In this document: piece after piece, positions 8,772-49,000 of the stretch
How positions within the stretch are numbered: position 1 is the first letter of the stretch
How the letters are laid out: each line of letters opens with the position of its first letter
DNA from: Parabacteroides faecalis
GTDB lineage: Bacteria > Bacteroidota > Bacteroidia > Bacteroidales > Tannerellaceae
Assembly (NCBI RefSeq): GCF_022809355.1
Contig: NZ_JAKZMM010000002.1
Span: forward strand, 1-64,000
DNA length: 64,000 bases
Direction: 5' to 3'
The notes under the pieces: model-generated
Told to the model about the DNA's origin: nothing
Database searches by the model: none
Seen by the model: the letters and a program-made list of their open reading frames with translations, nothing else
Program-made: the position numbers and the translations under genes

Positions 8772-11700
8772 TTAAAAACTAATATTAGCACCTAAAGATA
8801 ACGTGGTAGAAACAGGATAAGCACCACTAGTTAAAACATTACCCAGTTCAGGATCACCGCCCTTCCATCCTGTAATAGTTAAAACATTCTTACCTGTAAA
8901 AAATACTTTTAAATTATCAATACCGATTTTTTTTATACAAGGTTGCTTAAATATATACGAAATCGTTATATCTTGCAATCTTACATAAGAACGACTTTGT
9001 AATCCTAAGAATTTACTATCACCAGAGAACCAAGCTGCAGGATATTCATTATTAGGATTCTCAGCAGTCCAATATGGAACATAAATATTATTGGCACTAA
9101 AGAAATCTGAACGACCACCAGCCATATACGCAGGCAAATTGCTTTCCTGAAAATAACCATTACCTCCAAATGTTCCAGTAAATAACATATACAATTCTAA
9201 ATTCTTCCAAGAAACAGTATTACCTAAACTCAATTTGAAACGAGGATCTTTATTTCCAATAATAACTCGATCATCAACAGTAATTAAACCGTCCCCATTT
9301 ATATCTACATATTTAGGAGTACCAGCCTCTACTCCATTAGCATCCATATATTCTATATCATTTGTTTGAACAATTCCATTTTGTTTATAACCATATATTG
9401 AATGAATAGAATGCCCTATAAACAAATTATTACCTATATCATCATCCTCTATACCATCAGCATTTAAGTCATCACCATATAAATGAGTTAATTTATTTCT
9501 ATTTAGCCAAAAAGTTAAACTCGTCTTCCAATTCCAATCTTTTGATTGAATATTAACTGATGAAAGCGTTATCTCAACACCTCTATTTTTTACCTCGCCC
9601 ATAGATGATTTCATTGTAGTAAAACCAGTCATAACAGGTATCGTCCTATTAAAAAGTTGGTCATATGTTTTGGAAAAATATATATCTAAATCTGCAAATA
9701 AACGACTATTGAACCAAGATGATTCAAAACCAAAATTCCAAGCTTCTGTTGTTTCCCAACCTAATAGAGTATTACCTATCACTGATTGCTTTATACCATA
9801 AGTAGGGGAACCTATATTACCAAAAGAATAAAAAATACCACCAGAAGAACCTGTAGAAACCGTAGATAATGTTCCATAAGGATCAAGTCCTTGATTACCA
9901 TTTTTACCCCATGATAATTTTAATTTCATGTCATCCAAAAAATTTATTGATTTCATAAATGATTCATTTGTAATACGCCACGCAGAACCAACCGCCCAAA
10001 AATTCCCCCATTTACTTTGTAAACCAAAAACAGAGGCTCCATCTCTCCTATAAGAGGCTGTTAAATAATATGTATTACTAAAGGAATAAGATATTCGACC
10101 AAAATAACCTATATTTCTTCTTTTTGTATTATTATTATTCCATTTTTGAATTTTCGCATAATGTAAACCATTTAATCCCAATATAGTATTACCATTAGTT
10201 GAAAAATCGGAGCCTGTCATCTTTTCATCTTTCACATATTTACTATCTCGAGTAGCAACAGCTGTTAAATCAATTGAATGTTCTCCAAATGAATTTTTAT
10301 AATTTAAAATATTATCTATTACCCAACTTGTTGTTTTTATATTTTGTACATAACCATTTGCTACCGATAAATAATTTTGTTGAGTTGTTATAGAATAACG
10401 AGAATCATCATCATATGGGCCAATTGGTGCAAAATAATTTTCATGATAAAATTGACCTACTCTACGATAATCCAAATTACCAGCATAATTTAAACGATAA
10501 CTCAACCCTTCTAACCAAGGAATTTTAACTAACATAAAAGCATTCATTCTAAAATTATTACGCAAATCTACATCATCTACACCTCCTGATTCAACATCCC
10601 ACAATGGATTCACTGCTTCACTTTGTCCATTAGGGTATTTTTCTAATTGTGTTGAATTAGCTCTATACAACATATCATAAGGTGTAAGAATTTGTGCATT
10701 TGTTAAATTCGCTCCAATTCCAGAATAATCCGAATGTGTATATGCAGCATCAACGCCAATCTGCAACCAATCTGTAATATTCGTATTTATTTTACCTAAA
10801 ACAGTCATACGAGAGAAATCATCACCTTTGACAACACCTTGATTATCTGTATAAGAAGCGGACATATAATAGTTCATTTTATCTCCAGCCCCAGAAACAG
10901 CTATCTGATAGTCTTGCATCCACCCAGTACGAGTTGATTCATCTAACCAATCTATTTCATTACCTGCCTCATAATTCACTTTCTCTTGACTAAACAAGAA
11001 ACTATAATCCTCATACTTATTTTTATCTCTAACCATATTTAACCATTGCTCACCTTTCAATAACTTAGGTTTAAGATGCCAATTCTGCATACTACCTGCA
11101 ACATTAAGATTAATAACAGGTTTCCCTGTTTTACCCTTTTTGGTTGTAATAATAATCACACCATTTGCCGAGCGTGATCCATATGCAGCAGCCGATGTTG
11201 CATCCTTTAATACATCAAAAGAAGCGATATCATTTGGATTAATATCATTAATATTTCCCATAAAAATAATTCCATCTACCACTATTAATGGATCATTGGA
11301 TCCCGATATTGAGTTTTGTCCACGTACCTGCATTGAAGGTTGCCCTCCTGCAGAATTTGTTGCACCAATATCTAATCCAGAAACATTACCCTTTAGTGAT
11401 TCTAAAGCATTTGTATTAGAAGATAATGCTATCGGAGAATTTTCTAACTTAAAAGAAGAAACAGAACCTGTAAATTCTTTTTTTGTCGTAGTTCCATATC
11501 CTACAACTACCAACTCATCCAAAGACTGACTATCTTCTCTTAACGTAATAGAAAATGTTTTTTGGTTTCCTACTTTTATTTCCAGGTTGGCATAACCAAT
11601 ATAAGAGATTTGCAAAGTTGCACCTTCTTCTATATCCAATGAGAACTTACCATCCATATCGGTAATCGTTCCGTTGGTGGTACCTTTTACCATTACATTA

Positions 11701-20206: not shown

Positions 20207-20749
20207 TTACAAGAACCACCAAAACACCGGTAAATAATCTTTCAAGGCTATGCGAAGTACTTTCAATGATTTGGTAATATGATATTCTACACTTTTGGGA
20301 GCCAAGTGCAAGGTTTCGGCAATTTCCTTTACCGACATCTGTTCATATCGGCTCATGATAAAGATCTGACGTGTCTGTTCGGGCAAAGAAGCCAATGTAT
20401 CCTCCAGAATACGGGTTATCTCCGAAGAAAACATCTCTTCCGGATTACAAGCCTGCAAGGTAGCGATCCGATAAGAAGTATCCCGTATCTGCTTGTCCGA
20501 AATATCTTCCATTGCCTCCCACTCTATAGCCTGATGTTTCAAATAATTCAATGCTTTATTCTTCAAGATAGTCGTCAGCAATGCCAATGGAGTATTTACC
20601 GTTTCAGTCTTCAAAGTCTCCCATAATTGAATCAAAGCCTCTGAAGCAATATCCTCGGCCACCATATCATCACGTACATACGACTTCACAAACAGGAAGG
20701 ATCGCTTGTAGTACTGCGTATATAATCCACTGAAACTGATATTATTCAT
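20207..20749 (-). CDS. RNA polymerase ECF-type sigma-70 factor
   Basis: This 180-residue sigma factor recruits RNA polymerase to PUL promoters. The start is the ATG at 20749 (MNNISFSGL); the frame to 20773 would need TTG. Region 2 (YKRSFLFVKSYVRDDMVAEDIASEALIQLWE) lies near residues 14-45. Region 4 with the helix-turn-helix (SVKEIAETLHLAPKSVEYHITKSLKVLRIALKDY) lies near 138-172. A sigma of this Bacteroidota type is normally followed by its fecR, but here the next gene is susC2, and the only fecR in the window is at 12280-13227. A 22-bp-period palindrome array lies about 110 bases upstream. Confidence 0.92.
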   Translation of the reverse strand: MNNISFSGLYTQYYKRSFLFVKSYVRDDMVAEDIASEALIQLWETLKTETVNTPLALLTTILKNKALNYLKHQAIEWEAMEDISDKQIRDTSYRIATLQACNPEEMFSSEITRILEDTLASLPEQTRQIFIMSRYEQMSVKEIAETLHLAPKSVEYHITKSLKVLRIALKDYLPVFWWFL

Positions 20750-20858
20750 GGCATAAGAAGTATATTCTTCCAATCGAATCCGCAGTAAAGTTAATGAAAA
20801 GTTCGCATCAACAAAGAAAAAGGTAAGAGTATTTACGTAAAAATTAATTTACTTTTAA

Positions 20859-20942
20859 TTGATTCACCTTGGTGAATTAAACAAATCACCCGGGTGAATT
20901 AATCAATTCAGCTATATGAATTAATTGATTCACCCGGGTGAT
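20859..20942. repeat. 22-bp-period palindrome array A (four units)
   Basis: Four imperfect palindromes have their centres at 20869.5, 20891.5, 20913.5 and 20935.5, exactly 22 bases apart. The units are ATTCACC-TT-GGTGAAT, TCACCCGGGTGA, ATTCA-n6-TGAAT and TCACCCGGGTGA. AT-rich linkers of the TTAATTGA type join them, and the linkers are themselves near-palindromic. The array is intergenic, between the PurF-like gene and the sigma gene. No T run follows, so it is not a simple terminator. Array B near 48.9 kb has the same architecture. Confidence 0.85.
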
Positions 20943-21004
20943 GCAAACTAAAGCTTATCTATTTTAACTTAATTATCGCCTCTGATACAAGAGTTTATCA
21001 CCTA

Positions 21005-22411
21005 TTAAAAATGACTGCTTCCATCGAAACAATGCGTACATACCTTACATTTAGGTAATCCGATCGCTTCAATCAGTGTTTCCAACGTATTGAATTTCAA
21101 CGAACTCAAGCCGAAACGTTCTGCAATGATGGATACCATTTTCTTATACTCCGGAGAATCGGTGGTAGCATACTTGTCCAGATTCTTGTTTTCATCGCCT
21201 TCCAGTTCCTTAATAATACGGCGTGTGATCAACTCCAAATCACTCTTGGAAGAAGTAAATCCGATGAAAGGACAACCATAAATCAACGGCGGACAAGCAA
21301 TACGCATGTGTACTTCTTTGGCTCCATAATCATACAGGATCTTTACGTTATCCCGCAACTGAGTTCCACGGACAATCGAATCATCGCAGAACAGAATCCG
21401 CTTACCTTCCAACATTGAACGGTTCGGAATCAGTTTCATTTTGGCTACTAACGAACGTAACTCCTGATTGGCCGGAGTAAAACTGCGGGGCCAGGTCGGC
21501 GTATATTTAGCAATGGCCCGGTGATAAGGAACTCCTTTTCCTTCAGCATAACCCAAAGCCATACCTACTCCCGAATCCGGAATACCGCAGGCACAATCTA
21601 CTTCCGAATGGTCTTTCTGCCCCATCTTGTATCCACAGGCAAAACGCACTTCCTCCACATTCTTTCCTTCATAACTGGAAACGGGGAAGCCGTAATATAC
21701 CCACAAGAACGAACAAACCTGCATACCTTCATTCGGTTTGCGCATTTGTTCCAATTCATCGGCACGCAAACGGATTATTTCGCCCGGTCCTACGAATTTC
21801 TCTATCTCATAACCTAAGTTAGGCAAACTGCTCGATTCGCTTGTTGCCGCGTATGCTCCGTCTTTTTTCCCAATGACAATCGGAGTTCTTCCCCATTTAT
21901 CACGGGCAGCGATAATACCGTCTTCCGTCAACAACAGCATCGAACAAGATCCTTTGATCCGGTTATACACATTTTCAATACCTTCTACGAAATCCTTACC
22001 TTGCGTAATCAACAAGGCAACCAGTTCCGTCTGATTCGTCTTTCCGGAGCTTAATTCAGAAAAATGCATATTGACAGCCAGCAAATCTTTTTCCAGTTCG
22101 TCAATATTATTGATCTTAGCTACCGTAACAATCGCAAACTTTCCTAAATGAGAATTGATAACGATTGGTTGTGCATCGGTATCACTGATGATACCAATAC
22201 CGGCATTTCCTACGAATTTAGGCAAAGAAGCTTCAAACTTGGTTCGAAAATAAGAACTTTCCAGATTATGAATAGAGCGAGTAAACCCATTTTCTTTATC
22301 GTATGTCGCCATACCGCCTCTACGGGTTCCCAGATGTGAATTGTAGTCCGTACCATAGAACAAATCAGTAGCACAGGCCGACTTTGAGATAGTACCGAAA
22401 AAACCACCCAT
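21005..22411 (-). CDS. PurF-like amidophosphoribosyltransferase family protein lacking the N-terminal Cys
   Basis: The protein has the two-domain layout of glutamine PRPP amidotransferase (469 residues from the ATG at 22411). The C-terminal phosphoribosyltransferase domain looks intact: the PRPP loop ILFCDDSIVRGTQ near residue 345, with CPPLIYGCPF and the final KCKVCTHC cysteines that hold an Fe-S cluster in related enzymes. The N-terminal domain has the class II amidotransferase fold signature (DAQPIVINSHLGK, RDKWGRTPIVIGK, ATSESSSL), but the mature N-terminus is MGGFFG instead of MCG, and the usual NGN motif is absent. It therefore should not hydrolyse glutamine. It may be ammonia-dependent or have another role in nucleotide metabolism. 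Monocistronic. Confidence 0.8.
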   Translation of the reverse strand: MGGFFGTISKSACATDLFYGTDYNSHLGTRRGGMATYDKENGFTRSIHNLESSYFRTKFEASLPKFVGNAGIGIISDTDAQPIVINSHLGKFAIVTVAKINNIDELEKDLLAVNMHFSELSSGKTNQTELVALLITQGKDFVEGIENVYNRIKGSCSMLLLTEDGIIAARDKWGRTPIVIGKKDGAYAATSESSSLPNLGYEIEKFVGPGEIIRLRADELEQMRKPNEGMQVCSFLWVYYGFPVSSYEGKNVEEVRFACGYKMGQKDHSEVDCACGIPDSGVGMALGYAEGKGVPYHRAIAKYTPTWPRSFTPANQELRSLVAKMKLIPNRSMLEGKRILFCDDSIVRGTQLRDNVKILYDYGAKEVHMRIACPPLIYGCPFIGFTSSKSDLELITRRIIKELEGDENKNLDKYATTDSPEYKKMVSIIAERFGLSSLKFNTLETLIEAIGLPKCKVCTHCFDGSSHF

Positions 22412-22774
22412 TGTGTTTATTCTTATTATTAAGTTTTTGAAATATGGGTGCAAAAATACAAAATATCGGCCATCTGTAAAAAAGGAGCAATCAAAAAACA
22501 TCTTAATTTGTGGTGGATACACTTTACATTTTGTCAGTCAAGAAACCCTTTATTGGCTGAAAGCCTCTCACAAAAAGCATCTTTCTTCATCTCCGATTGA
22601 ACGAAAACTCAGAAGCCTGTCACTTTTATTGAACCGGTCATTACCCTATTCGCTGATTTTACTATAAATTTGCCAGCAAAGGGAAGATCGCACAATGTAT
22701 CCACATTGTCATCCGGATGTCATCGGATATTCATCCCTGAAAAATAAAAAAGCAGTTACTTTACAATCTATTCA
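22412..22774. other. Divergent intergenic region, no gene seen
   Basis: This 363-base space lies between the divergent PurF-like and phosphatase genes. On the minus strand a TATTTTTG (plus-strand 22451-22458) could be the -7 element for the PurF-like gene. On the plus strand TAAATTTG at 22665-22672 could serve the phosphatase gene. Neither has a well-spaced -33 box. I see no RNA gene. Confidence 0.4.
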
Positions 22775-48910: not shown

Positions 48911-49000
48911 AATTAATTCACTAAGGTGATTCAATCAATTCACAATAGTGATTCAATTAATTCACAACTGTGAATTAATTAATTCATATGGGTGAATCAA
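48911..49000. repeat. 22-bp-period palindrome array B (four units)
   Basis: Four palindromes have centres at 48923.5, 48945.5, 48967.5 and 48989.5, exactly 22 bases apart: TCAC-TAAG-GTGA, TCAC-AATA-GTGA, TTCACA-AC-TGTGAA and ATTCA-n6-TGAAT. The arms are conserved and the central bases vary from unit to unit. AATTAATTAA-like linkers join them. The array lies between the meaB terminator and the end of the DUF1848 gene. Its design is the same as array A at 20.86 kb. Confidence 0.85.

Follow-up and report, generated by a model that had tools for sequence, protein, structure and literature searches.

The four palindromes that repeat every 22 bp in the window (the whole stretch of 64,000 nucleotides that was analysed) are, with a probability of about 85%, an array of cognate sites for an HU-wHTH protein that binds as a homodimer; HU-wHTH denotes a member of the HU-HIG family in which an HU domain is fused to a winged helix. 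The copy at the protein's own gene would be autoregulatory, and the copies scattered over the genome would be further sites. The proposal draws on what we observed in sequence: the geometry of the arrays, the number of their units, the pairing of gene and array, the placement of the operator, the agreement of scattered arrays with the operator found in the same genome and an association between residues and bases. The original prediction had offered a binding array for a dimeric protein, a structured RNA or a REP-like element, and is partly supported: sequence speaks strongly for the first option, with the winged-helix HU-HIG protein as candidate, the second is disfavoured and the third retains a loose likeness.

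Table 1. Features of the window and gene-array pairings in the genome of P. faecalis.
Feature	Position	Strand	Description
Array 1, family A	20859..20946	.	Four 22-bp palindromic units
Array 2, family A, four units	48913..49000	.	Second array of the window, flanked by two convergent ORFs
ECF sigma factor gene	20207..20773	-	ORF; Sigma70_r2 4.9e-9, Sigma70_r4_2 1.9e-15
PurF-like gene	21005..22522	-	ORF; 3′ end towards array 1
Pairing, family A	C25:9793 (gene)		Operator C25:9660-9737, 56 bp before gene
Pairing, family B	C5:87185		Two-unit operator
Pairing, family C	C6:22659		
Pairing, family E	C49:25910		
Pairing, period-21 family	C1:28526		Array directly upstream of HU-HIG gene

Array 1 consists of units 20859-20880, 20881-20902, 20903-20924 and 20925-20946, spaced by 22, 22 and 22 bp. 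This bears out the exact 22-base period announced for the four palindromes, and the constant TCAC/GTGA arms around a variable centre and the near-palindromic linkers are found as described; of the range then given, 20859..20942, the start stands and the end does not, the last unit extending 4 bp further. Within the window, TTCACCNNGGTGAA with up to 2 mismatches occurs 11 times against a mean of 2.63 in shuffled sequences, 11 being reached in 0 of 100 shuffles. The array starts about 110 bp upstream of the likely ATG (~20749) of the ECF sigma gene, that is, on its 5′ side, and a near-consensus TACCTTTT can be seen by eye between the two. The place between a PurF-like and an ECF sigma gene is confirmed, the latter being backed by Pfam domains and the PurF-like label being the name given to its ORF by the earlier reader from sequence alone. 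Comparison of 30 purF loci revealed family A units scoring >16 in two, that of P. faecalis and that of G034, in which the units sit on the opposite side of purF. Arrays of differing alphabets are found in the neighbourhood of purF in two genomes, family A in P. faecalis and family F in G018, where the array (L095, around 1156-1243) lies ~250-330 bp past the 3′ end of the gene.

Scanning the P. faecalis genome (4.31 Mb) with TCA-n6-TGA repeated four times at a 22-bp period (3 mismatches at most) yielded 31 forward matches, corresponding to 25 places and 6 shifted overlaps, and the reversed-pattern control gave 0 matches in the same genome. The original prediction was to be abandoned if there were no further period-22 arrays or if they belonged to a known repeat or terminator family; with 25 places in the genome, this did not materialise, and the array is neither a terminator nor a known RNA. 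The 25 places are distributed among alphabets that differ in their linkers, 15 in family A (AATT-type), 8 in family B (ACGATCGT) and 2 in family C (AAGCACTT-like). Scans on palindrome and period alone reveal more alphabets, namely D (TCCTCCGATCGGAGGA), E (AAAGCTTT) and a period-21 family. Four-unit arrays of the latter (TTAGTTCACG) lie at C1:18244, 29028, 70429 and 123462 of P. faecalis, and a family D array at C1:88381; the search for an HU-HIG partner found none for this family D array, nor for the G004 arrays at 80320 and 30292. When four repeated palindromes were scored at periods of 15-33 over 853,466 bp of four genomes (score at least 1.25), the counts were 15 at period 22, 4 at 21, 2 at 16, 1 at 23, 1 at 24 and 0 otherwise, matches being taken regardless of coding status, so that a few may be in coding DNA. 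The feature common to the arrays is their period rather than their sequence. The flanking ORFs of 50 arrays were both on the minus strand in 13 cases, both on the plus strand in 13, convergent in 12 and divergent in 5, and 7 arrays had a single neighbour. Since array 2 lies between convergent ORFs, simple promoter control would be insufficient for all copies.

In 44 arrays aligned from five genomes there are four units in all 44 and a fifth in none; the set includes two operators, L041 and L125, and was picked by a four-unit pattern, which shorter arrays could escape. When 453,466 bp of the P. faecalis genome were scanned with a profile of one family A unit (score >16), 9 clusters emerged: four units are present in 4 of them and three in 2, and the others are a one-unit piece, a two-unit piece and a lone unit with a score of 16. 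With this profile the fourth units of the two three-unit clusters score 9 and 12. The one-unit and two-unit pieces are at contig ends, both beside the same insertion-sequence end, and have a 9-base stretch in common at the break, from which we infer that they are one array split by insertion. Scattered family A copies hence comprise 14 found whole by pattern, two of them in the window, and this apparently split one. An insertion sequence with ends GGGCTGACGCATTAC is found in or beside arrays at the end of L059 (C2, 153.3 kb), at the starts of L060 (C9) and L042 (C26), and at 147.6 kb of C1. Other unit numbers were seen in one five-unit array (Bacteroides sp. 214) and in operators with fewer units, two in the family B operator of P. 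faecalis and three in the CCTAGG operator of G034. In most arrays of P. bouchesdurhonensis the middle linker is, by eye, of the RATY type and the outer linkers of the TATA type, a pattern that seems to indicate a fixed order of the four units.

Nine public genomes picked for TCAC-like operators were searched with the TCAC pattern (up to 3 mismatches). TCAC arrays are present in 8 of the 9, and the control gave 0 in every one. P. vulgatus has 18 matches, P. distasonis 9, B. ilei 7, B. neonati 3 and P. massiliensis 2; Bacteroides sp. 214 has 14 and P. bouchesdurhonensis 11, each including one shifted overlap; B. faecichinchillae has 1, which is its operator, and Bacteroides sp. 224 has 0. Among 198 genomes of the order, searched with up to 2 mismatches, only that of P. 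faecalis matches, and 7 of the 38 genomes of the genus match TCAC patterns; these numbers are small because genomes use different alphabets and each genus has few representatives in the order sample.

The partner gene of family A, on contig C25 from position 9793 onward, encodes a protein combining an HU domain with a winged helix, and its promoter region holds an array with the same alphabet as those of the window. The name HU-HIG was reportedly given in a 2017 survey of the HU/IHF superfamily. Matches above the curated cut-offs to PF18291 (HU-HIG; 3.7e-39 over residues 1-125) and TIGR01201 (1e-23) assign the protein to this family, which is characterised by an N-terminally extended HU domain and a fused C-terminal domain, and the Pfam entry text of PF18291 itself mentions fusion to a wHTH. 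An AlphaFold2 model of the P. distasonis relative, made with 47 natural sequences (pLDDT 89.8, pTM 0.61), has HU elements at 34-118 and a C-terminal three-helix domain (helices 137-150, 156-163 and 167-179). Against solved structures the family profile matches HU at 4.3e-10 (positions 29-119) and a Z-alpha winged-helix domain at 0.0013 (positions 130-193), and among the matches listed no single chain spans both the HU part and the C-terminal part. That best solved match of the C-terminal domain is a Z-DNA-binding domain. PF18291 matches number 20, 23 and 13 in three genomes, some being plain HU or weak, and among 43 pattern matches on viral contigs none is a relative of the HU-wHTH protein.

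We gathered HU-HIG genes from eight genomes and scored their upstream regions for arrays. Genes of the winged-helix class, from seven genomes of the genus, have an upstream array in 12 of 15 cases (10 at period 22 and 2 at 21) and fall below the threshold in 3; the comparison by Fisher test was with 24 of 605 other genes, many of the 24 being scattered arrays by sequence, and the 605 being 607 minus two array-bearing HU-HIG genes, with array-less HU-HIG genes kept in. Short-class HU-HIG genes have one in 9 of 37 cases (4 at period 22, 3 at 20 and 2 at 23), so that arrays also go with proteins lacking a winged helix, which is hence not always required. Both class counts omit L193, L203, L208, L216 and L220 (plain HU or fragments) and L196, L206 and L212 (<200 bp upstream). 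Repeats at periods of 23 and 20 bp are seen upstream of the short genes L219 and L215 (G025) and L180, L182 and L185 (P. faecalis), and the HU-HIG reading frame of the period-21 pairing has a winged-helix-like segment at its end. The period of an array may follow the HU-HIG protein subfamily.

A second set came from public records, in which seven such proteins used as queries led to 74 loci. Of these, 67 were scored (threshold at least 1.15), leaving out L224, with 73 bp upstream, and six partial matches (L292-L297); the upstream region of L282 was masked. These loci, of the Bacteroides, Phocaeicola, Parabacteroides and Tannerella type, carry an upstream array of four 22-bp units in 55 of 67 cases, or 49 of 59 once proteins at least 95% alike are merged, with 12 of the 67 below threshold. 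All 55 operators have period 22 and none a period of 18-21 or 23-27, and the downstream windows contain an array in 0 of 66 loci. The check proposed with the original prediction, co-occurrence with one candidate protein, has therefore succeeded and given that protein a name.

The position of the array relative to the promoter was determined in 60 operators (score at least 1.1) using the motif TAnnTTTG, which we take to be the -7 box. This box is found 5-45 nt before the array in 45 of the 60 operators, and 14-15 nt before it in 42 (37 of 53 when merged), ending 14 nt before in 27 and 15 nt before in 15. Windows shifted by 120, 170 and 220 nt contain it in 1, 1 and 0 of 60. If transcription starts ~7 nt after the -7 box, the operator would begin near +8, a position suited to repression. 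In the HU-HIG paralogues L175, L200 and L210 the promoter box comes, by eye, after the array.

We scored scattered arrays against profiles of 11 operators and found the best fit to be the operator of the same genome for 12 of 12 family A arrays, 1 of 1 family C and 1 of 1 family E arrays in P. faecalis, 19 of 19 in G023, 2 of 2 in G025 and 6 of 6 in G034. Array 1 scores 11.5 with the family A operator of its genome (next best 9.0), and array 2 scores 12.3 (next 7.4). The family B array of P. faecalis scores best with the G004 operator, its own two-unit operator being absent from the 11. The arrays of G004 and G005 are split between the very similar operators of G004 and G023, which do not distinguish them, and those of G009 fall to family A of P. 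faecalis because the contig of G009 does not include its operator; the two proteins are 64% identical. None of the 11 profiles fits the arrays of families D and F or those at G004_80320 and G004_30292. By eye, the family F array resembles the one upstream of the short HU-HIG gene L201 of the same genome, and the AAAACACC arrays of G014 resemble three units at L210.

The half-site core was then compared with protein columns over 72 operators, a number that includes near-duplicates (for example L166/L232, L194/L228, L195/L225 and L275-L277/L279), using z scores without tree correction. The strongest association with the core is that of R172, which lies in the presumed recognition helix (z 9.0); T166, just before this helix, comes next (z 8.4). 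Arg172 accompanies CAC in 49 of 49 and CAT in 5 of 5 operators (together 54 of 54) and GAC in 0 of 8, which have 4 Glu, 3 Lys and 1 Thr instead; after merging at 90% identity, the figures are 41 of 41 for CAC/CAT and 0 of 6 for GAC. Columns 82 (z 7.5) and 22 (z 7.1) of the HU part also score high, so shared ancestry contributes to the association.

What we infer from these observations is that the protein binds the arrays with one dimer per unit, bends the DNA and represses its gene, and that the scattered copies have a role. One HU-wHTH dimer would occupy each 22-bp unit, its winged helices reading the two TCAC half-sites and its HU domains bending the DNA. Four dimers, covering 8 half-sites and 88 bp, would then share one face of the helix, with DNA wrapped or bent into one nucleoprotein complex. 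At the protein's own gene, the array just behind the transcription start would lead to repression, and hence to autoregulation. The scattered family A copies would be further sites of the same HU-wHTH protein, gained or spread over time, and probably shape local chromosome structure or expression.

The most serious competitor, which we nevertheless regard as unlikely, is that the array forms the central part of a MITE-like mobile element. In this case it would resemble the HU-wHTH operator only secondarily, through capture or domestication of the operator from the element. MITEs are marked by terminal inverted repeats and a target-site duplication. Most G023 copies do share leader and tail flanks, and at locus L129 of G023 ~176 bp are absent in G004 and G005, whose flanks are 87-95% identical, and 8 bases may be duplicated at this single insertion. 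In-register inverted flanks are seen at several loci, but only at some, and the inversion signal over all loci is weak, with a mean of 14.1 compared with 13.5 for mismatched pairs (L068, L073 and L080 omitted as duplicates); the second locus compared, L114, lacks a clean empty site. Furthermore, G023 arrays whose leader or tail is shortened or missing still have all four units intact, and HU-wHTH operators keep a fixed distance to the promoter box across genera. When the 79 ORFs beside arrays were compared with Pfam, no transposase or recombinase recurred among the matches listed; HU-HIG was found in 3 of 79, as were the unrelated GH43 and TPR. The BrickBuilt MITE of Porphyromonas gingivalis (PMC4596501) is described as having 23-nt units in 1 to 22.8 repeats, IS5-like ends, a leader and a tail, and 19 intergenic copies in strain ATCC 33277. 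The arrays resemble it as intergenic tandem repeats of about two helical turns with leader and tail, but differ in having 22-bp units, four of them in 44 of 44 picked arrays instead of variable copies, and a cognate DNA-binding gene; we do not count them as BrickBuilt members.

We consider it very improbable that the array acts as a structured RNA or RNA-level regulatory element. Operator arrays often lie within the presumed 5′ UTR, their palindromes could fold into hairpins, and centre dinucleotides match across the palindrome in 35 of 80 G023 cases. However, the two halves of a linker resemble each other in 0 of 60 cases in G023 (from related arrays) and in 5 of 39 in family A of P. faecalis, an exact period without indels fits DNA, and the box after the array in the three paralogues argues against a transcribed element. 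Mutual information between half-units indicated no consistent RNA pairing, and no Rfam family reached its cut-off in 20700-21200 (best 29.4 bits against 113, matches such as MIR807 being far below). CRISPR is ruled out, as originally claimed, because the repeats have no unique spacers and the linkers are themselves near-palindromic. Least credible of all is a REP element, a GTAG/CGTC-tagged palindrome that would be mobile through a REP-associated tyrosine transposase (RAYT). The copies are indeed dispersed, palindromic and intergenic, with some CTAA/TTAG ends and one G023 copy that looks gained relative to two relatives, but they form four-unit arrays paired with a non-transposase gene, and their alphabets track HU-HIG paralogues.

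Returning to the HU-wHTH binding array, the combination of fourfold site and gene points to a paired protein-and-site system in gut Bacteroidales. A bolder extension, to which we give rather less than even odds, is that these bacteria have several private chromosome-tagging systems, in which each HU-wHTH paralogue would read its own alphabet via an altered recognition helix, mark scattered four-dimer sites that all have one nucleoprotein geometry, and set its own level via a site of this kind. If true, bacterial chromatin would have a multi-channel address system, with sites and readers co-evolving and spreading. MatP-matS, ParB-parS, and IHF and HU sites offer a parallel in their dispersed sites for a chromosome-shaping protein, but those are single sites with one motif per protein, whereas the arrays would hold four dimers and have several alphabets per genome. 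Lrp/AsnC octamers phase several dimers on one DNA face and are autoregulatory, as proposed here, but have another fold without HU domain and are not dispersed as four-unit arrays. The HU-HIG family itself (HU_rel; PF18291, TIGR01201), to which the partner belongs by its domain matches, is already known. In open-licence papers we recognised nothing on the binding sites, targets or regulons of its members, nor on these four-unit arrays, which now supply it with predicted sites and a predicted operator. These gut bacteria carry many HU-HIG proteins, and the arrays offer a one-residue hypothesis for their specificity; if right, a histone-like fold would have been turned into a family of sequence-specific, self-regulating site readers.
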